Below, one piece after another: positions 29,837 to 60,634 of a stretch of 64,000 bases of DNA (position 1 is its first letter; each line of letters opens with the position of its first letter). Source of the stretch: Mucilaginibacter sp. 44-25 (GTDB lineage: Bacteria; Bacteroidota; Bacteroidia; Sphingobacteriales; Sphingobacteriaceae). The stretch lies in the NCBI GenBank assembly GCA_001898335.1, contig MKTS01000001.1, positions 124,001-188,000 of the forward strand, read 5' to 3'. Under the pieces are notes generated by a model, which worked only from the letters and a program-made list of their open reading frames with translations, was not told the DNA's origin and made no database searches. The position numbers were made by a program, and so were the translations under genes.

Positions 29837-29867
29837 TTTGTCAGGATTAAAACAAATTATATTTTTG
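29837..29867 (+). promoter_or_regulatory. Consensus Bacteroidota promoter of the TonB receptor
   Basis: TTTG (29837-29840), a 19-nt spacer, then TATTTTTG (29860-29867). This is a full match to the TTTG-N17-23-TAnnTTTG pattern. Transcription should begin near 29872, about 150 nt ahead of the receptor ATG and about 57 nt ahead of the leader ORF. Confidence 0.75.
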
Positions 29868-29928
29868 TCGAGTAATTCTATAGACAATGTATAAATTTTA
29901 CTTCTTTTCATTGAACTTTAAAAGAACC

Positions 29929-29964
29929 ATGCAGCTCCCGGTTGCCTGTTGTTGCTGTCGTTGA
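29929..29964 (+). CDS. Poly-cysteine leader peptide MQLPVACCCCR
   Basis: An 11-codon ORF lies in the 5' leader of the TonB receptor mRNA: ATG at 29929, then TGT TGT TGC TGT (29947-29958), CGT and TGA at 29962-29964. Four consecutive Cys codons are very unlikely by chance, and the position downstream of a consensus promoter fits a cis-acting leader peptide. Poly-cysteine leader ORFs that sense cysteinyl-tRNA are known from mycobacteria. After the stop, 56 nt up to the receptor ATG contain 18 C and 2 G, a Rho-loading type composition; there is no intrinsic terminator. TTGCC (29942-29946) can pair with GGCAA (29975-29979). A regulatory role is inferred. Confidence 0.72.
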   Translation: MQLPVACCCCR

Positions 29965-30020
29965 TTTTACATACGGCAATTACCATATCACTTTCATACA
30001 CATATACCCCAACCCAATTC

Positions 30021-43497: not shown

Positions 43498-44748
43498 TTA
43501 CTCTGCTGATTGCCTGAGCATTAATGCGCCTACCGTAACGTTGGTACGGCTATCGATGATGATGGCGCCACCATTCGCTTTGTTTTCCTGGTAAGGGTCA
43601 AAAGCCAAGGGTTCAGCAGTTTTGATGACCACGCGGCCTATATCATTCAGTTTAAAATCTTCGTCAAAATCCTTTTCAAGCGTGTTGATATTCACCTTGT
43701 AAAGTATCTCGCGTATTTTGCAACGTACCGTTTTGGTGTTATGTTGTACCAGGTAAGTTAACGAAGTGTCTAAGCCTCGGGTATCCATCCAGCACAGGTC
43801 GGCTTCAATGGCGCTGCTCAATTGCGGCTCTCCGGCGCTGTTTACGATCAGGTCGCCACGACTGATATCGATGTTATCCTTTAAATGAACCGTTACCGAC
43901 ATGCCCGCCAAAGCTTCTGCCGGCTCTTTATCATACATCTCAATTTTAGATATGGTAGAAGTAAAGCCCGATGGCAGGATGGTTACTTTATCGTTCACTT
44001 TAAAAGCACCACTCGCTACACGGCCGGCATAGCCCCGGTAATCGTGCAACTCATCAGTTTGCGGACGTACTACCCATTGTACCGGCAGGCGCGCATGAGC
44101 AGCTGTGTTATCGCGGTTTACCTCAACGGTTTCTAAATGTTGCAATAGGCTATCGCCTTTATACCAATCCATTGTAGTGGATGGGTAAACAATATTATCG
44201 CCCTTAAGCGCACTTACCGGGATAAACGTTACATCGGTTAATTTAAGCTTCGCAGCTATCTTTTGATAATCAGCAACGATACTGTTGAATGTATCTTCGC
44301 TGTAATCAACCATATCCATTTTATTGATGGCGATCACTACTTTCTGGATCTGCAGCAGCGACACCAAAAAAGAGTGACGCGTAGTTTGCTCAACCACGCC
44401 CTTACGCGCGTCAATCAGGATAATGGCCAGGTCGGCATTGCTGGCACCGGTAACCATGTTACGGGTATACTGGATATGACCGGGGGCATCGGCAATAATA
44501 AATTTGCGCTTATCGGTCTCGAAGTATTTATAGGCCACATCAATGGTGATGCCCTGCTCACGCTCGGCTTTGAGGCCGTCGGTTAAAATAGCCAGGTCAA
44601 TAGTACCATCATCATTTTTACGGTTCGATGCATGCAGGGCTTCTAACTGGTCGGCCAGTATGGCATCGCTATCATATAGTAACCTGCCGATAAGCGTGCT
44701 CTTACCGTCATCAACACTACCTGCCGTTATAAATTTTAGTATATCCAT
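43498..44748 (-). CDS. cysN: Sulfate adenylyltransferase, GTPase subunit
   Basis: A 416-residue EF-Tu-like GTPase that drives ATP sulfurylase, converting sulfate and ATP to APS with CysD. GTPase motifs are GSVDDGKSTLIGRLLYD (residues about 9-25), DAPGHIQYTRNMVTGAS and INKMDMVDYS. RLPVQWVVRP and GYAGRVASGAFKVND belong to the following beta-barrel domains. The protein stops after the barrels and has no APS-kinase (CysC) fusion. It is the last gene of the sulfate operon, but separated from cysD by 234 bp of tandem repeats instead of the usual tight coupling. Confidence 0.95.
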   Translation of the reverse strand: MDILKFITAGSVDDGKSTLIGRLLYDSDAILADQLEALHASNRKNDDGTIDLAILTDGLKAEREQGITIDVAYKYFETDKRKFIIADAPGHIQYTRNMVTGASNADLAIILIDARKGVVEQTTRHSFLVSLLQIQKVVIAINKMDMVDYSEDTFNSIVADYQKIAAKLKLTDVTFIPVSALKGDNIVYPSTTMDWYKGDSLLQHLETVEVNRDNTAAHARLPVQWVVRPQTDELHDYRGYAGRVASGAFKVNDKVTILPSGFTSTISKIEMYDKEPAEALAGMSVTVHLKDNIDISRGDLIVNSAGEPQLSSAIEADLCWMDTRGLDTSLTYLVQHNTKTVRCKIREILYKVNINTLEKDFDEDFKLNDIGRVVIKTAEPLAFDPYQENKANGGAIIIDSRTNVTVGALMLRQSAE

Positions 44749-44756
44749 TATTGGAT

Positions 44757-44921
44757 TTTAGATTTTTAGATTTACGATTTTAGATTGATGAAAACTTTAT
44801 CACAGTCTACATTAGTGGATGTTAGATTTTTAGATTTACGATTTTAGATTGATGAAAACTTTATCACAGTCTATATTACTGGATGTTAGATTTTTAGATT
44901 TACGATTTTAGATTTTTTTGC
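44757..44921. repeat. 64-bp tandem repeat between cysD and cysN
   Basis: Two full units and a partial third with a 64-bp period; the marker GATTTTTAGATTTACG starts at 44761, 44825 and 44889. Full units are almost identical (TACATTAG versus TATATTAC near their ends). Each contains sub-repeats of TTTAGATT. An inverted, diverged copy of the motif (CGTACATCTAAAATC) lies at 44972-44986, abutting the cysD 3' end. No reading frame crosses it. Confidence 0.9.
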
Positions 44922-44982
44922 TTGATTAAATTTTTGAATTCAGTTTAACACCAAGACTAAATCCGAAATCGTACATCTAAAA

Positions 44983-45888
44983 TCAAAAGTATCCGCCTTT
45001 TTTTCTTTCCTCCATGGCCGCCTCGCTCACCTTATCGTCCATACGGGCGCCGCGTTCGCTTATTTTTGATTCAGCTATTTCGTTGATAATATCATCTATC
45101 TCAAAAGCATATGATTCAACCGCTGCGGTACAGGTCATATCACCTACGGTGCGGAAGCGTACGTTTTTGCGTGTTATCACATCTTCTTCATCCATATTCA
45201 GGAATGGCGATGCCGCCATTAGCTGGCCGTTACGGGTGATACAATCGCGCTGATGCGCAAAGTAAATGGTAGGCAAGGGAATGTTTTCCCTGCGGATGTA
45301 ATTCCACACATCCAGTTCCGTCCAGTTACTTATGGGGAACACGCGTACGTTCTCGCCTTTGTGGATCTTACCGTTGTAGATATTCCAAAGCTCGGGGCGC
45401 TGGCGTTTGGGGTCCCACTGCCCGAACTCATCACGTACCGAAAATATGCGTTCCTTGGCACGGGCTTTTTCCTCATCGCGGCGGGCACCACCTATACAGG
45501 CGTCAAAGCCATGCTTGGCAATAGTGTCCAGCAGGGTTACGGTTTGTAATGCATTCCGACTGGCATTTTTACCTTTTTGTTCTATCACCTTACCTTCATT
45601 AATACTATCCTGCACATGACCGATGATCAGTTTTTCGCCGATACGCTCGATCATTTCATCACGGTATTGGATGGTTTCTTCAAAGTTGTGGCCGGTATCA
45701 ATATGTACCAGCGGAAAAGGGAACTTACCCGGCCTAAAGGCCTTAATAGCCAAATGCATCAGTGTGATGGAATCTTTACCACCGGAAAAAAGTAGCGCAG
45801 GTTTTTCAAACTGCCCGGCAACTTCGCGCAAAATATATATAGCCTCGGCCTCTAATTCGTCCAGGTAATCTAAACGGTTTCTGCTCAT
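44983..45888 (-). CDS. cysD: Sulfate adenylyltransferase, small subunit
   Basis: A 301-residue PP-loop ATP pyrophosphatase, the catalytic half of ATP sulfurylase. LLFSGGKDSITLMHLAIKAF (residues about 32-51, in two parts FSGGKDS and LMHLAIKAF) is the PP-loop. FPLVHIDTGHNFEE, GGARRDEEKARAKERIFS, FPISNWTELDVWNYI and the C-terminal RGARMDDKVSEAAMEERKKGGYF are diagnostic (e.g. SEAAMEERKKGGYF). It works with CysN in the cytoplasm. Its start overlaps the cysH stop by 4 nt (ATGA), so translation is coupled. Confidence 0.96.
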   Translation of the reverse strand: MSRNRLDYLDELEAEAIYILREVAGQFEKPALLFSGGKDSITLMHLAIKAFRPGKFPFPLVHIDTGHNFEETIQYRDEMIERIGEKLIIGHVQDSINEGKVIEQKGKNASRNALQTVTLLDTIAKHGFDACIGGARRDEEKARAKERIFSVRDEFGQWDPKRQRPELWNIYNGKIHKGENVRVFPISNWTELDVWNYIRRENIPLPTIYFAHQRDCITRNGQLMAASPFLNMDEEDVITRKNVRFRTVGDMTCTAAVESYAFEIDDIINEIAESKISERGARMDDKVSEAAMEERKKGGYF

Positions 45889-46604
45889 TCTTTTAAATCA
45901 TTTAAAGTAGCTGCATGCAGGCCACATTCTTTCTTGCTTTGGTCTTCCCACCACCAGCGGCCGGCCCTGAAATCCTCTCCGGGTTGAACCGCGCGGGTGC
46001 AGGGCTGACAGCCTATGCTTGGGAAACCCCTATCATGCAATGTATTGTATGGTATATTGTATTGTTTGATGTAAGCTTTCACATCATCTAATGTCCATGA
46101 GAAAATAGGGTGGAACTTGATGAGCTGGTTACCCTCGTCCCATTCCACATTGCTCATTTCTTCACGGTTGGGTGATTGCTCGGCACGTATGCCGGTTATC
46201 CAGCACTGATTCCCTTTTAAGGCGCGATGAAGCGGCTGTATCTTCCTGATACCACAGCATTCCTTACGGTTAGCTACAGATTCATAAAAACTGCTTGGGC
46301 CTTTGGCATTTACCATCGCTTCCAGTCTATTGTTATCGGGGTAATAGGCATAAATGGGCTGGTTGTACATTTGCATGGTACGGTTCCACACATAGTAGGT
46401 TTCCGGAAATAAACGGCCGGTTTCCAGTGTGAAAACCTTAATGGGGATGTTATTGGTGAATATCATGTGCGATATCACCTGATCTTCCCAGCCAAAACTG
46501 GTTGAGAAAACGATCTCTCCCGGAAACAGTGCGGCCAAAGCCTGCAACGCCGCCACAGGGGCTTTATCTTTTACCAGTTGCGATATGTAAGAAGTATCTG
46601 CCAC
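45885..46604 (-). CDS. cysH: Adenylylsulfate (APS) reductase, 4Fe-4S type
   Basis: A 239-residue CysH-family reductase. FSTSFGWEDQVISHMIF is the substrate PP-loop region. Four cysteines, KECCGIRK and GCQPCTRAV, form the CC...CxxC set that holds a 4Fe-4S cluster in assimilatory APS reductases and is absent from PAPS reductases. The catalytic cysteine is in KKECGLH at the C-terminus. It should therefore reduce APS directly to sulfite, using thioredoxin, in agreement with the absence of an APS kinase in this operon. It lies 1 nt after the fusion gene and overlaps cysD. Confidence 0.94.
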   Translation of the reverse strand: MADTSYISQLVKDKAPVAALQALAALFPGEIVFSTSFGWEDQVISHMIFTNNIPIKVFTLETGRLFPETYYVWNRTMQMYNQPIYAYYPDNNRLEAMVNAKGPSSFYESVANRKECCGIRKIQPLHRALKGNQCWITGIRAEQSPNREEMSNVEWDEGNQLIKFHPIFSWTLDDVKAYIKQYNIPYNTLHDRGFPSIGCQPCTRAVQPGEDFRAGRWWWEDQSKKECGLHAATLNDLKE

Positions 46605-46605
46605 T

Positions 46606-48117
46606 TTAAAATGTCTTCAATAAAAAATTAACAATACTGCGGATGCTGATTGCAACCACTATAACAGCAACGGCCATCATTATAGCTTTTGCCGATATTT
46701 TGTTTGAGATCTTGGCCGCTACCGGTGAGGCTAACGCGCTGCCAATAACGAGCCCCGCAACGGCATCCCAATGCGTGCTTTTAAGCATGGTGATAAACGT
46801 TAAAGAACCCATCAACGCTATAAAAAAACGCGACAACTTTACCGTACCTAAAGAGAAACGCGGGTGACGACCTCCGGCTATTAAGGTGGATAACACGATG
46901 GAGCCCCAGCCGCCGCCGCCAACAGCATCAATAAAGCCACCACCCAAACCCAAAAGCGATATACGTTTGATCTTTCCCTCAGTACGCTTCTTTTTAAGGC
47001 TCAAAGCTTTTTTAAATATGACGATGCCTAATACCAGTGTATAAACTGATACTGCAGGTTTGGTATACATAGCGTAATGCTCTAATGACGATAGCAGGTA
47101 AGCGCCGGTTACCGCGCCAATAATGCCCGGAAGCAATAAGAGCTTAAACAACTTCCAGTTTACATTTCCCATACGGTAGTGCATCCAGCCGGCAATGCCA
47201 TTGCTCATGATCTCGGATAAGTGAACACCCATACTTGCCGAAGCGGGAGGGACACCCATTGATAATGAAAATGTGGTTGAGGTAACACCGTACGACATGC
47301 CGATGGCGCCGTCTATCAGCGCGAAAACGAAACCGGCACCCAAAAAGTAGTAAAACATGGGAGAGATATTCTCCACATAGGCCTTAAATTCCGGGTCTTT
47401 AAACCAAACCGCTGCTATGGTGATCAGGAGGAATAATACAAACGTGGCCCATACGATCAATTTTAGCCTCGCATTACTCGGGGCTTTTTTTGGGCCGAGT
47501 AGCACCGCAGTAACTCGGTTAAGCTCTTTAACCTTGTGAGTAAAATCGCCGCTAAGGTTATTTCGAATATCCTGCATTTGTTGCAAGGTAGTATCCAGTT
47601 CATCAGGCAAGGCCTCGGTTAAAACTTCGCGCAGGCGCTTGGCAATAGTTGGCGATTTTCCGTTGGTTGATATGGCCAGTTTTAAATCACCTTTTTGAAC
47701 GATGGAGCCTAAATAGAAATCGCACAGTTCGGGCTTATCGGCAACGTTGATAAGCAATTTACGATCATGTGCCGATTGGCGAACGTACCTGTTCAGGTCG
47801 CTGTCATCGGTAGCGGCTATCACTATATCGGCAGTGTCCAGATCGGCTTCCTCAAAAGCTTTTTTAATTATTTTGACATTGGGGTGCTGCGCCACCAGGT
47901 CTATCACCTGCGGCAGCACTTCTTTAGCAACTATAGTAACAGCAGCAACCGGGCAGTTAAGCAGCAGGGCGGTAAGCTTTTCAAGGCCCACCTTTCCGGC
48001 GCCGACCAGCACGGTATGCAAGTGCTCCAACTTCAAAAACACCGGGAACAACTGGTTTCCCTGCGGCTTTTGATGCGGGCGCGCTGCTAATTGATTATCC
48101 TGCGGTAACAACGTCAT
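46606..48117 (-). CDS. Fusion of siroheme synthase N-domain (precorrin-2 dehydrogenase) with TauE/SafE transporter
   Basis: A 503-residue two-part protein. Residues about 22-205 match CysG N-terminal / Met8p precorrin-2 dehydrogenase: Rossmann motif VLVGAGKVGLEKLTALL, DIVIAATDDSDLNRYV, INVADKPELCDFYLGSIVQKGDL and STNGKSPTIAKRLRE. From about 217 to the end are eight to nine membrane helices of the TauE/SafE (TSUP) family: YFLGAGFVFALIDGAIGMSYG, GVHLSEIMSNGIAGW and GGGFIDAVGGGGWGSI. TSUP proteins move sulfite, sulfonates or sulfate. One polypeptide thus joins siroheme cofactor synthesis to sulfur-anion transport. The 5' end overlaps cobA by 23 nt and cysH follows after 1 nt. Confidence 0.92.
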   Translation of the reverse strand: MTLLPQDNQLAARPHQKPQGNQLFPVFLKLEHLHTVLVGAGKVGLEKLTALLLNCPVAAVTIVAKEVLPQVIDLVAQHPNVKIIKKAFEEADLDTADIVIAATDDSDLNRYVRQSAHDRKLLINVADKPELCDFYLGSIVQKGDLKLAISTNGKSPTIAKRLREVLTEALPDELDTTLQQMQDIRNNLSGDFTHKVKELNRVTAVLLGPKKAPSNARLKLIVWATFVLFLLITIAAVWFKDPEFKAYVENISPMFYYFLGAGFVFALIDGAIGMSYGVTSTTFSLSMGVPPASASMGVHLSEIMSNGIAGWMHYRMGNVNWKLFKLLLLPGIIGAVTGAYLLSSLEHYAMYTKPAVSVYTLVLGIVIFKKALSLKKKRTEGKIKRISLLGLGGGFIDAVGGGGWGSIVLSTLIAGGRHPRFSLGTVKLSRFFIALMGSLTFITMLKSTHWDAVAGLVIGSALASPVAAKISNKISAKAIMMAVAVIVVAISIRSIVNFLLKTF

Positions 48118-48880
48118 GAACTTCTTTAACCAATTTATATTGAGGATGCAAAGCCACTACTTCGCCAAATATGATAAGCGCAGGCGAGGCAATACCTTTT
48201 TCGGCTACCAAAGCGGCGATTGTATCTACTGTACCTACAGCAACCTTTTCATCAGCTGTGGTGCCGCTTTGTATGACGGCTGCTGGCAGGTTTGCTTTAC
48301 CTTCCGCTTTAAATAATTCTGCTATCTCTCTTAATTTATGCAAGCCCATCAGTACAACTACCGTTGCATTGTTTTTTGCCGCCTGGTACAGACCAGCAGA
48401 AATTTGTCCTGCGGTTGTAGTGCCTGTTATCACCCAGAAACTTTCGCTTAAGCCGCGATGAGTAACCGGTATGCCTTGCAAGCCCGGTACGCCAATAGAA
48501 CTTGAAATACCAGGCACCACCTGCGTTGGTATATTATGCTCAGTGGCAAATTCCAATTCCTCATGCCCACGACCGAACACGAAAGGATCGCCGCCTTTAA
48601 GGCGTACCACGTGGCCGTAGTTTATGGCATAATCAACCATTAACCGGTTGATGTTGTCCTGAGAAAAAGTATGATCGCCCGAGCGTTTACCCACGTAAAC
48701 CTTTACAGAAGTAGTTGGCGCAAGCTCCAACATTTCTTCGTTCACCAATGCATCGTACAAAACCACATCCGCTGTTTGCAGCGCTTTGATGCCCTTAAGC
48801 GTTATCAGTTCGGCATCGCCGGGGCCTGCGCCAACAAGCGTAATACGTGGTTCTTTTATATGGTTATTATTTGATATCAT
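48095..48880 (-). CDS. cobA: Uroporphyrinogen-III C-methyltransferase
   Basis: A 261-residue SAM-dependent methyltransferase making precorrin-2, the first step toward siroheme. Signatures are ITLVGAGPGDAELITLKGIKAL (in parts VGAGPGDAELIT), VLYDALVN, VRLKGGDPFVFGRGHEE, VVPGISSSIGVPGLQGIPVTHRG and VVVLMGLHKLREIAE. Product then passes to the dehydrogenase domain of the next gene. Siroheme is the cofactor of the sulfite reductase encoded just upstream, whose stop overlaps this start by 4 nt. Confidence 0.96.
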   Translation of the reverse strand: MISNNNHIKEPRITLVGAGPGDAELITLKGIKALQTADVVLYDALVNEEMLELAPTTSVKVYVGKRSGDHTFSQDNINRLMVDYAINYGHVVRLKGGDPFVFGRGHEELEFATEHNIPTQVVPGISSSIGVPGLQGIPVTHRGLSESFWVITGTTTAGQISAGLYQAAKNNATVVVLMGLHKLREIAELFKAEGKANLPAAVIQSGTTADEKVAVGTVDTIAALVAEKGIASPALIIFGEVVALHPQYKLVKEVHDVVTAG

Positions 48881-50970
48881 GATGGTAATAAAGCCTCTCT
48901 TTTGGTTTTAACTGCTTCTAAAAATTCGGTTGCCTGTGCTTTATAAGTGGTGGCAAATGCTTCAGAAGGTTCATTTTTGTTGATCTGCAGCACCAACTCA
49001 TTAAAAGTTGTAGCTAATGGCAGTTCGCCTGTTTCTACATAGTTGGCATCAAACTCTTTGATAATACCAGCCTGTGTGCTGGTGTTAATGCCTTTATCGA
49101 GCAATAATGCTTTTGCCGAGCTGATGAAAGTGTTATATGAGTGATAAATGGCATCGGCCCATAAACCTTTTGCGTAAGCACCGTTTGCCCAGCCTAATTT
49201 TTCATCCGCTTCGTACAGTAAAGTTGCAACCAGATCGATGATCACTCCGGCACATTCGCCTACGCCTATGGCTGTTGCAAAAGTTTCCTGGTGTCCCCAG
49301 TCAACAAATTCATCATCGGTGAGTGTAGTAAGGTCGGCCAGTGGTTTCAGCAGTCGATAGAAGTAGTCTTTGCCTTGTCTATCGTAATAAGCGTGATATG
49401 TTTCGCCTTCTATTGATTGTGCTTTGTAGTCATCTAACAAAGTCCGTAAAACATCGGTAGCACGTTTTGATGGTACTTTTATTACACGCTCGGCAGCACG
49501 ACCCAAACCGTCGCCAACCGTTCCGCCTCCCAGCATTACCTGTACTGATGGTAATACACGCGCGCCCGCCTTTAAAGAACTGCCGTGGAAACCGATGTGC
49601 GCCAAACCGTGCTGGCCGCAGCTGTTCATACAGCCGCTTATTTTGATCTTGATCTCACGATTGTAGATAAAATCTTCGTACTCGTTAAAAATCACATCCT
49701 CCAGCACTTTGGCCATGGTCATGCTATTGCTAATGCCCAAATTGCAGGTGTCGGTACCGGGGCAGGTGGTTACGTCAGCAACGCTATCAAAGCCGGGGGC
49801 AGCCATATCTAAAGCGTGCAAGCCTGCATACAAAGCTTCCAAATTTTCCTTGCGGACGAACTTCAACAGCAATCCCTGATTTTGGGTAATACGTATCTCA
49901 TCCGCTACATAAGCTTTTACTGCTTCGACAAACTTGCGCGCTTCGGGTGTATGAATATCGCCCACAGGTACTTTTACGTACACGCTGTAAAAGCCTTTTT
50001 GCTTTTGCTCAAATACGTTGGTTGCCAGCCATTGTTCATAACGCAACGGGTTATCGATCTGAACCGGCTGAGTAGAAATGGCGTCCGGAATGGCAGGTTG
50101 AGGCACTGCACCACGATTGATAGGGTAGCTTTTAACCTTTAAAGCCAGGTGTTCTTCTTTAGCCAGACGAAGCACTTCGTCCAATCCCAGTTTTTGAACA
50201 AGGTATTTTAAACGCGCTTTGTTACGGTTGTTGCGCTCGCCATAACGGTCAAAAACGCGGATGATGGCTTCTATATAAGGTATCAGCTGATCTTCAGGTA
50301 AAAACTCCTCAACAATGCTGGCCAGCAAAGGCTGCGCGCCAAGGCCGCCGCCAAGGTTTACCTTGAACCCGCGCTCTCCTTTTTCATTCAGTTTGGGTAT
50401 AAAACCCAAATCATGAATGTAAGAGAAAGCCGTATCGGCATCACTTGATGAGAATGAGATCTTGAACTTGCGGCCCATTTCCTGGCAGATGGGGTTGCGC
50501 AAAAAATATTCAAAGGTAGCCTGTGCATAAGGCGAAACATCAAACGGCTCCTGCGGATCAATACCCGCATTAGGCGATGAAGTAACGTTACGGACGGTAT
50601 TGCCGCAGGCTTCGCGTAGGGTAATATCATCCTTTTCCAGTTCGGCCCATAGTTGAGGGGTACGGTCGAGGCTTACATAATGGATCTGGATATCCTGGCG
50701 GGTGGTCAGGTGCAGGTTACCGCTGCCGTACTCGTCGGCTATGTTGGCGATCTTAAGTAGTTGCTTAAAGGTTACCTTCCCAAACGGCAGCTTAATGCGC
50801 ACCATTTGTACGCCGGGCTGACGCTGGCCGTAAACGCCACGGGCCAAACGCAGACTGCGAAATTTCTCATCATGGATCTTGCCTTCGCGAAACGCGCGGA
50901 TCTTACGCTCCAGGTCAATAATATCCTGCTCAACTATAGGGTTCTCCAGTTCTGTCCTGAAGCTTTGCAT
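48877..50970 (-). CDS. Siroheme sulfite reductase with C-terminal HEPN-like extension
   Basis: A 697-residue ferredoxin-type sulfite/nitrite reductase. The two ferredoxin-like/parachute repeats begin VRIKLPFGKVTFKQL and YVKVPVGDIHTPE. The 4Fe-4S/siroheme ligands are Cys in TTCPGTDTCNLGIS and SGCMNSCGQHG. NLHLTTRQDIQIHYV binds siroheme. Context with cobA and cysHDN makes sulfite, not nitrite, the likely substrate, reduced by six electrons to sulfide. Residues from about 560 onward are an extra all-helical domain (GVGECAGVIIDLVATLLYEA, AIYHSYNTFISSAKALLLDK) resembling HEPN; its role is unknown. First structural gene of the operon, directly behind the attenuator. Confidence 0.92.
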   Translation of the reverse strand: MQSFRTELENPIVEQDIIDLERKIRAFREGKIHDEKFRSLRLARGVYGQRQPGVQMVRIKLPFGKVTFKQLLKIANIADEYGSGNLHLTTRQDIQIHYVSLDRTPQLWAELEKDDITLREACGNTVRNVTSSPNAGIDPQEPFDVSPYAQATFEYFLRNPICQEMGRKFKISFSSSDADTAFSYIHDLGFIPKLNEKGERGFKVNLGGGLGAQPLLASIVEEFLPEDQLIPYIEAIIRVFDRYGERNNRNKARLKYLVQKLGLDEVLRLAKEEHLALKVKSYPINRGAVPQPAIPDAISTQPVQIDNPLRYEQWLATNVFEQKQKGFYSVYVKVPVGDIHTPEARKFVEAVKAYVADEIRITQNQGLLLKFVRKENLEALYAGLHALDMAAPGFDSVADVTTCPGTDTCNLGISNSMTMAKVLEDVIFNEYEDFIYNREIKIKISGCMNSCGQHGLAHIGFHGSSLKAGARVLPSVQVMLGGGTVGDGLGRAAERVIKVPSKRATDVLRTLLDDYKAQSIEGETYHAYYDRQGKDYFYRLLKPLADLTTLTDDEFVDWGHQETFATAIGVGECAGVIIDLVATLLYEADEKLGWANGAYAKGLWADAIYHSYNTFISSAKALLLDKGINTSTQAGIIKEFDANYVETGELPLATTFNELVLQINKNEPSEAFATTYKAQATEFLEAVKTKREALLPS

Positions 50971-50996: not shown

Positions 50997-51029
50997 TAAA
51001 AAAGCCCCTTCTGCAATGGCTGAAGAGGC
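50997..51029 (-). terminator. Intrinsic terminator/attenuator ahead of the sulfate operon
   Basis: On the minus strand GCCTCTTC (51029-51022), a 10-nt loop, GAAGGGGC (51011-51004) and TTTTTT. It lies after the leader ORF stop and 26 nt before the sulfite-reductase ATG, so it must be read through for the operon to be expressed. Its loop and 5' arm contain CAGCC (51022-51018), which can instead pair with GGCTG at the end of the leader ORF (51058-51054). Confidence 0.78.
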
Positions 51030-51050: not shown

Positions 51051-51125
51051 TTACAGCCGCGATGTATTTATCCGCATACAGCAGAAAATCAGGTTGTTGT
51101 GAGTTGTTACGAATATTGTTGTCAT
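51051..51125 (-). CDS. Cys-Cys-Met leader peptide of the sulfate-assimilation operon
   Basis: A 24-codon ORF, ATG at 51123-51125, TAA at 51051-51053, starting MTTIFVTTH and containing LIFCCMRIN (TGC TGT ATG at 51083-51075). It lies between a TATATTTG promoter box and an intrinsic terminator, upstream of sulfite reductase. In the classic model, stalling at the Cys codons leaves GGCTG (51058-51054, the last two sense codons) free to pair with CAGCC in the terminator, allowing read-through. A ribosome reaching the stop codon covers GGCTG and termination follows. The ORF, terminator and complementarity are seen; the cysteine response is inferred. Confidence 0.72.
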   Translation of the reverse strand: MTTIFVTTHNNLIFCCMRINTSRL

Positions 51126-51143: not shown

Positions 51144-51236
51144 TATATAGTATATGGAATTAGTAGAAATTAATTGAAAATTTTTTACTTCGGATTTTTA
51201 ATCACGCAAACGGGAGGGTACAAGAAAGTAAGTTTA

Positions 51237-60234: not shown

Positions 60235-60239
60235 TAACT

Positions 60240-60600
60240 GCAAAACGTTCTATCGCTTCGGGCTTGTACCGGGGAGGAAAGTCCGGGCAACGCAGAGCAT
60301 CCTGCTTCCTAACGGGAAGGCGCCGGCAGCCGGCGACAGCAAGTGCCACAGAGAATATACCGCCCGCAAGGGTAAGGGTGAAAACGTGAGGTAAGAGCTC
60401 ACGGCTTTCCCGGGCGACCGGGATCGCGGTAAACCTCAGGAGTTGAAAAACCAAATAGGTTCTGAAAGCGGAGTTGCTCGCTCCCGTGCCCGTAAGGGCC
60501 GTCAGAATGGGTAGGTTGATAAAGCATGCTGGTAACAGCATGATCAGATTAATGATAGAAATCTCCGTTAGGAGATACAGAACCCGGCTTACAGATTTGC
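60240..60600 (+). ncRNA. rnpB: RNase P RNA (class A)
   Basis: The catalytic RNA of RNase P, which matures tRNA 5' ends. Universal core segments are present in order: GAGGAAAGTCCGGGC, ACAGAGAATATACCGCC, GGTAAGGGTGAAAACGTG, GGTAAGAGCTCACGG and, near the 3' end, GATAGAAAT...ACAGAACCCGGCTTAC. GCAAA (60240-60244) pairs with TTTGC (60596-60600) to close helix P1. Ends are approximate to a few bases. A consensus promoter box lies just upstream and a strong terminator just downstream. Confidence 0.96.
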
Positions 60601-60606
60601 TGCTGT

Positions 60607-60634
60607 AAAAATCCCCTTTCGAGGGGATTTTTTT
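60607..60634 (+). terminator. Intrinsic terminator of rnpB
   Basis: AAAAATCCCC / GGGGATTTTT with a 6-nt loop and a seven-T tract, directly after the RNase P RNA. The A-tract also lets it serve the convergent thioesterase gene. Confidence 0.92.

Follow-up and report, generated by a model that had tools for sequence, protein, structure and literature searches.

A gene encoding a TonB-dependent receptor in Mucilaginibacter sp. 44-25 is preceded by a 25-codon ORF with a run of cysteine codons at its end, and we consider it likely that this ORF serves as a cysteinyl-tRNA-sensing leader peptide under a sulfur-regulon promoter. The receptor would probably be switched on when cysteine is short. Sequence comparison argues for this reading through a codon-constrained run, a link between the leader and sulfur genes, an operator, a compositional bias of the spacer, and the lack of a terminator. 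Control by cysteinyl-tRNA supply had been proposed in an initial annotation of the locus and stands as the best reading because the Cys run is conserved in the genus, the leaders recur as a class, and the receptor is linked to sulfur genes; the annotation had, however, overlooked the operator-like palindrome at the predicted transcription start. The features of the window, by which we mean the whole stretch of 64,000 nucleotides analysed, are collected in Table 1.

Table 1. Features of the receptor and sulfate loci and their positions in the window
Feature	Position	Strand	Basis or content
Promoter-like elements TTTG-N19-TATTTTTG	29837..29867	+	direct reading
TTTG, then N19, then TATTTTTG	29837-29840 and 29860-29867	+	direct reading
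Operator-like palindrome GTCGAGTAATTCTATAGAC (consensus GTCTA-N9-TAGAC), at predicted transcription start	29867..29885	+	
Leader ORF MYKFYFFSLNFKRTMQLPVACCCCR, 25 codons	29887..29964	+	reading and translation
Inner ORF MQLPVACCCCR	29929-29964	+	ATG CAG CTC CCG GTT GCC TGT TGT TGC TGT CGT TGA
Inner ATG of leader	29929	+	
Weak hairpin inside leader, just 5' of Cys run	29931..29945	+	TGCAG-N7-CTGCA type in relatives
Four-Cys codon run TGT TGT TGC TGT	29947..29958	+	reading and translation
Spacer, candidate Rho-loading region	29965..30020	+	C-rich and G-poor, 56 nt with 18 C and 2 G
Spacer segment complementary to Cys-codon run, possible hairpin	29972..29984	+	
Receptor start codon ATG	30021	+	
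TonB-dependent receptor, 981 aa	30021..32966	+	CarboxypepD_reg-like, Plug and beta-barrel
Sulfate-assimilation operon	43498..50970	-	Pfam: GTP_EFTU/CysN-like, two PAPS_reduct, NAD_binding_7+TauE, TP_methylase, NIR_SIR sulfite reductase
Sulfate-leader terminator-like hairpin and T run	50998..51029	-	
Sulfate-operon leader ORF MTTIFVTTHNNLIFCCMRINTSRL, CCMR motif	51051..51125	-	
Bacterial RNase P class A RNA	60237..60607	+	

Results

Structure of the receptor locus

The promoter letters were confirmed as first read, and we take TTTG-N19-TATTTTTG to be of the Bacteroidota -33/-7 promoter type; an element similar to the -7-like one of the window also stands ahead of the leader in most of the orthologous loci displayed. 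In the window, the -7-like element and the outer AUG are 19 nt apart, the transcription start being predicted near 29872. The leader had been described as the 11-codon MQLPVACCCCR, whose letters and position are right; its start and length are not, as the frame is open back to the ATG at 29887. All 24 rows of an alignment of 24 of the 44 leader-bearing loci have the outer ATG, and 20 of them have the inner one; the outer is therefore probably the start actually used. The composition reported for the spacer ahead of the receptor ATG also proved correct. Searches of PDB and NCBIfam for the ligand of the receptor returned generic TonB matches only.

Conservation of the leader

We searched for the receptor in 100 genomes of the genus and took matches of at least 62% identity as orthologues, which gave 42 including that of the own genome. 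The initial annotation had made its reading depend on the Cys run being conserved in orthologous loci, and within the genus this conservation is complete: 42 of 42 orthologues have a Cys-run leader, with 2 to 6 Cys codons that adjoin the stop or are one codon away from it (four codons in 17 leaders, three in 16, two in 7, five in 1, and six in 1). A CCC leader was found in none of the 28 paralogues at 35-47% identity (0/8 at 44-47% and 0/20 at 35-41%).

A second collection comprised 80 named loci, about half of them from Mucilaginibacter and the others from Hufsiella, Solitalea, Pedobacter, Niastella, Segetibacter, Dyadobacter, and others; both collections overlap (G051 and L262 are an example) and are not independent samples. 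The 39 loci titled Mucilaginibacter had terminal CCC in 32 cases and terminal CC in 7, and the upstream ATG ORFs of the 41 loci with other titles had CCC in 8, terminal CC in 4, CC elsewhere in 4, and none in 25. We saw the class in Mucilaginibacter, Hufsiella, Solitalea, a Pedobacter, a few Chitinophagaceae, and one Dyadobacter, and found no Cys run at the leader end in the seven Niastella-titled loci or in three of the four Dyadobacter loci. Most receptor orthologues outside Mucilaginibacter lack the leader, and most of those outside the Mucilaginibacter-titled loci retain the operator. The suggestion that such leaders may be widespread in Bacteroidota is borne out here for Mucilaginibacter and some relatives, and 25 of the 41 loci with other titles have no Cys pair.

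Pattern scans added little. A scan with TGYTGYTGYYGNTRA was uninformative, its matches being dominated by codon runs within genes and TGN being accepted as well. Equally uninformative was a CCCC-stop scan of 148 genomes of the phylum, where most places were without a locus and where, following up the first place per genome, we found an ATG-started intergenic Cys leader in 0 of the 29 examined loci (L203-L231). The pattern CCCFRA occurred at 10 places in 8 of 151 genomes, and as a leader ahead of a TonB receptor only in this genome and its nearest relative; L371 contains a short CCCFRA ORF. One candidate, C15:106981, lies 122 nt upstream of a receptor match and was rejected, as it falls in Ala/Val codons of the preceding ORF. 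Separately, a leader MKTTFTTASLNRYSIDPRNFTYGQCCCCFRA on the minus strand of L109 (1990-2085) lies between a cysteine desulfurase-like gene and a TonB receptor; it was seen only in this genome and its nearest relative, and a SAM riboswitch is located farther upstream of the desulfurase-like gene.

Codon-level constraint

Across 24 loci, the Cys run had a diversity of 0.09 at the first codon position, 0.07 at the second, and 0.40 at the third, compared with 0.53, 0.44, and 0.50 in the first 14 leader codons and 0.53 in the spacer. The runs of the 44 loci, which were chosen for having the leader, contain 114 TGT and 60 TGC codons in 16 distinct strings. As positions 1 and 2 of the run are conserved with position 3 free, and the N-terminal part is as variable as the spacer, it is the Cys codons and not the N-terminal peptide sequence that are kept, a pattern that a codon-sensing leader should show.

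In the 80 named loci, a leader that begins with ATG and contains CCC stands ahead of 40 of 78 receptor starts (2 of the 80 were left out for having <90 nt upstream) versus 6 of 561 other starts; the loci are related and P values are therefore inflated. ORFs with Leu triplets were also raised, with 18 of 78 receptor starts against 15 of 561 others, and this excess is probably an out-of-frame shadow of the TGT/TGC run.

Palindromic operator-like site

The palindrome of the window has 0 mismatches to the pattern derived from the orthologues, with a chance expectation of 0.05 in the window at ≤3 mismatches. Over the 10 half-site bases, all 42 orthologues match at ≤2 mismatches and 32 of 42 at ≤1. 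Among the 28 paralogues, 2 (L171 and L176) have a chance-like match. In 1.6 Mb of named loci, GTCTA-N9-TAGAC with ≤1 mismatch occurred 103 times at spacing 9 versus 3-19 times at any other spacing. Of the 103 sites, 85 sit ahead of the receptor, in 65 of the 80 loci, and 4 ahead of cysH genes with a Cys leader. Scrambled half-sites matched the same sequence 28-116 times at every spacing, which makes the raw count say little, and it is the preference for spacing 9 and the position before the receptor that are informative. Of 61 genomes of the genus, 49 contain an extended pattern at ≤3 mismatches, whose reversed control gave 0 matches. In the own genome, the 19-nt operator at ≤3 mismatches, a loose pattern, gave 4 matches versus 11 for the reversed control, and the loose match upstream of the sulfate operon of the window (51150-51168) is therefore no evidence alone.

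As in a regulon of the Rrf2/CymR type, the palindrome is common to sulfur genes within the minority of them that was tested: it stands at the receptor and four cysH genes, and also, with 3 mismatches, at a gene of the cysteine desulfurase type and, with 2, at a hexapeptide transferase gene. An Rrf2-family gene is present in 22 of the 80 named loci and adjoins sulfate genes in those looked at. The own genome has a homologue with 64% identity (C1:103027-103455), and the Rrf2 protein scored 78 bits against the CymR model, under the cut-off of 195. Judged from gene position, the trans-acting factor may be an Rrf2-family (CymR/IscR-like) protein. Inspecting the Niastella/Longitalea loci L299, L303, L306-L309, L316, and L328 by eye, we saw several copies of a palindrome of the form AGTCTA...TAGGCT or ...TGGACT before the receptor, alternating with CCCGG...CCGGG-T hairpins, possibly as tandem promoters and terminators.

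Operator and leader at other genes

Poly-Cys small ORFs had been suspected to form a recurring class, and we did find them before other TonB receptors, PhyH dioxygenases, redoxins, sulfite reductase, and cysH. Nine of 20 distant TonB receptors have a CCC leader, and a palindrome (≤2 mismatches) stands ahead of 8 of these 9 versus 1 of the 11 leaderless ones. Away from the orthologous receptor, we examined 56 operator sites of the 77 places listed: a strict Cys leader followed in 21 of the 56, versus 2 of 56 antisense and 1 of 168 further-downstream windows, and 35 of the 56 were without one. The 21 leaders are followed by genes for, among others, further TonB receptors, dioxygenases of the PhyH type, AhpC/TSA-type proteins, one sulfite reductase, and one protein resembling serine carboxypeptidases; ten proteins at these and other operator sites were tested by Pfam. 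Leaderless operator sites precede a class-V aminotransferase of the cysteine desulfurase type, a hexapeptide transferase that we read as CysE-like, and AI-2E-type transporters. In L407, L422, L430, L436, and L444 (Pfam for L407 only), an operator-like site without a Cys leader lies 430-586 nt ahead of the AI-2E-type transporter gene. PhyH-type dioxygenases lie behind an operator in L394, L424, L435, and L438 (Pfam for L394 only); the short leaders there have terminal runs from CCC to CCCCC, and such leader-bearing enzymes are candidates for organosulfur use.

These elements (GTCTA-N9-TAGAC at the start site, a poly-Cys ORF, and a C-rich spacer) could constitute a portable cassette, acquired by receptors of different lineages and defining, for Mucilaginibacter and some relatives, a regulon of sulfur starvation in which outer-membrane receptors, dioxygenases, and redoxins would be under direct control by Cys-tRNA charging without an intrinsic terminator; we see the case for this as evenly balanced.

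Link to sulfur genes

All six non-receptor CCC leaders among the 561 other starts precede sulfur genes, cysH in four cases and sulfite reductase in two. Homologues of six sulfur proteins of the window, identified with BLAST, account for 86 of the 561 starts: the CCC leader is found at 6 of these 86, with the other 80 lacking it, versus 0 of the remaining 475. The receptor is often a neighbor or member of the sulfate-assimilation cluster. Sulfite reductase was searched in 41 genomes, at least 10 of which have it no more than about 8 kb from the receptor; in the window, the gap is about 16 kb. A homologue of the NAD_binding_7/TauE protein of the window is present in 56 of the 80 named loci, of which some are short, one of the cysH-like protein in 40, of the CysN-like protein in 37, and of the CysD-like protein in 36, and in Solitalea and Niastella the receptor stands among cys genes (named by eye except for the window-operon proteins, which were tested by Pfam). 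Two genomes without an orthologue, G258 and G243, have another TonB receptor with operator and Cys leader at most about 10 kb from a sulfite reductase. Its gene neighborhood suggests that the receptor would import a sulfur source.

Among 30 sulfite reductase loci, one of which was without a start found, 19 had an ATG leader containing CC, and 18 of these 19 also had a terminator-like string. In L256, L259, and L260, only 74-83 nt separate the promoter motif from the ATG of the sulfate operon, and we found no CC leader there; the sulfate-promoter motif was scored by a pattern from those same sequences and is descriptive. Elsewhere in the same genome (L006:1283-1640), a SAM riboswitch is followed by a leader ORF (1405-1518) ending in MCMCCCCC and an O-acetylhomoserine sulfhydrylase-type gene, giving two sulfur sensors in one leader; in another genus, one genome shows a Cys leader ahead of what is, by eye, apparently the same sulfhydrylase-type enzyme.

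RNA features

We found no terminator-like site between the leader and the receptor, the sole plus-strand one of the region being inside the leader (29931-29945), and the intrinsic terminator between leader ORF and gene that typifies the classical trp-type attenuator is absent. The initial annotation had expected a mechanism other than the terminator-based one of the sulfate operon, and this is supported, as the sulfate-operon leader is followed by a stable hairpin and T run. In 24 of the 44 loci, RNAalifold gave 5 pairs, none with double changes, and no conserved spacer helix. The hairpin inside the leader shows modest covariation, with 86% of the cells paired and double changes in 3 of 6 pairs in the 24 aligned loci.

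The spacers of the 44 receptor loci contain 27% C and 5.6% G, compared with 18.8% and 14.0% before 284 other genes and 21.9% and 11.2% before 26 of the 28 paralogues. Spacers with such an excess of C over G could simply be unstructured 5' UTRs. A Rho step is plausible, as it fits the C-rich and G-poor spacer, the lack of a terminator, and the presence of a rho gene.

Discussion

The mechanism that we envisage has two layers. A transcription factor, possibly of the Rrf2 family (CymR/IscR-like), would act at GTCTA-N9-TAGAC at the transcription start, and ribosomes would then initiate at the AUG at 29887 near the 5' end and reach the terminal Cys codons, of which orthologues have 2-6. With Cys-tRNA charged, the ribosome would finish and leave, exposing the bare spacer and leading to an early stop of transcription, most likely via Rho. 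With charged Cys-tRNA short, the ribosome would stay on the run, shield the start of the spacer, and block any hairpin between the Cys run and the spacer, such that the receptor would be transcribed. In tnaC-like logic, a Rho site is covered at its beginning by a ribosome that stays at the leader's end. By analogy, our leader would fit this logic, and the sign would fit too, low cysteine giving more receptor. Rho shielding of the tnaC-like kind is also sketched in excerpts of PMC9973294.

The Cys codons might be sensed in the same manner with a translational output, a Cys-run/spacer hairpin or the released ribosome governing initiation at the receptor AUG without Rho; we regard this as possible, though rather unlikely. 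The complementarity between the Cys run and its own spacer exceeds that of shuffles (mean z -1.08 in 44 loci), and the run pairs its own spacer better than those of other loci (P = 0.0002 in 27 loci after dereplication of the 44), and mycobacterial cysteine regulation is termed translation attenuation in the portion of PMC13236596 available. The covariation test, however, also fires on a coding-region control (P = 0.005), for which reason the hairpin is suggestive only, RNAalifold found no conserved structure, and pairing of the spacer or run with the start region was not beyond chance.

It is improbable that the operator alone regulates, with the leader ORF a passenger or an artefact of a TG repeat. 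The seven Niastella-titled and three of the four Dyadobacter loci, which have operator-like palindromes and no terminal Cys run, would agree with that explanation, but TGT and TGC exchange synonymously while positions 1 and 2 are fixed, differing leaders with the same C-terminal run occur before cysH, PhyH, and redoxin genes, and the strict Cys leader follows the operator sites in sense far more often than in antisense windows (21/56 versus 2/56). Highly improbable in our view is a peptide that itself senses metal or redox state in the manner of CruR/CutF, its cysteines binding copper or becoming oxidised. Some leaders do precede redoxin-type genes, and CruR, the product of a uORF before a TonB receptor, is Rho-dependent according to excerpts of PMC9973294 and PMC12914433. 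Yet the Cys run is at the extreme C terminus and within the ribosome until release, the remaining peptide is unconstrained, and the non-receptor CCC leaders of the 80 named loci, six of six, precede sulfur genes. We also did not find the conserved exported Cys-motif protein of copper operons that characterizes the CruR/CutF type in the text available to us, the 25-aa peptide being constrained only in its terminal run and having a sulfur neighborhood.

If the cysteinyl-tRNA-sensing reading is true, cysteine-codon attenuation, described in Actinobacteria and in a cysS case of Rhodobacterales, would also operate in Bacteroidota, and it would reach outer-membrane uptake beyond biosynthetic operons. 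The leaders could then flag uncharacterised TonB receptors as importers of sulfur sources.

Polycysteine leaderless short ORFs of mycobacteria, reportedly described by Canestrari in 2020, are said to act as cysteine-responsive attenuators. Excerpts of PMC4633059, PMC9094748, and PMC13236596 likewise report mycobacterial polycysteine short ORFs as cysteine-responsive and, as here, these are short ORFs near the 5' end with C-terminal Cys codons before cysteine/sulfur genes. In our case, the upstream ORF has the Cys run adjoining the stop and the position before cysteine/sulfur genes, the latter by gene neighborhood only for the receptor. The present leaders differ in belonging to Bacteroidota, in preceding an outer-membrane TonB receptor, and in having a palindromic operator at the start site and a C-over-G spacer; the mycobacterial ORFs are leaderless, whereas in our case some transcribed nucleotides are predicted ahead of the AUG.

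Candidate leader peptides with Cys runs have been described before actinobacterial cys operons and cbs, with no conserved terminator hairpin and with Rho as a weak possibility (PMC1262725). The Cys run near the stop, the lack of a conserved terminator hairpin, and the consideration of Rho are shared with our leaders; the phylum and genes differ, and here an operator and codon-position constraint were found. The uORFC-8-2 motif before cysS in Rhodobacterales, a uORF with tandem Cys codons as in our leader, is read as ribosome-mediated attenuation in the available text of PMC8632094. That motif folds into stems and ends in an intrinsic terminator, which the receptor leader lacks, and the sulfate-operon leader of the window is closer to it. 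Searching the main texts of the open-access literature, we met no description of poly-Cys leaders from Bacteroidota or ahead of TonB receptors linked to sulfur. A flavobacterial transcriptome study describes leader-peptide attenuation before amino-acid operons, cysteine not being named in the accessible portion (PMC9723704), and the words "leader peptide" are absent from the searched text of a Bacteroides transcriptome study (PMC7366714). CruR of Bordetella resembles our case in being a uORF before a TonB-dependent receptor and in its link to Rho, a feature of CruR that is plausible here, but from the parts of PMC9973294 and PMC12914433 at hand it is a copper-sensing protein, whereas the locus described here conserves its Cys codons and has a sulfur context.
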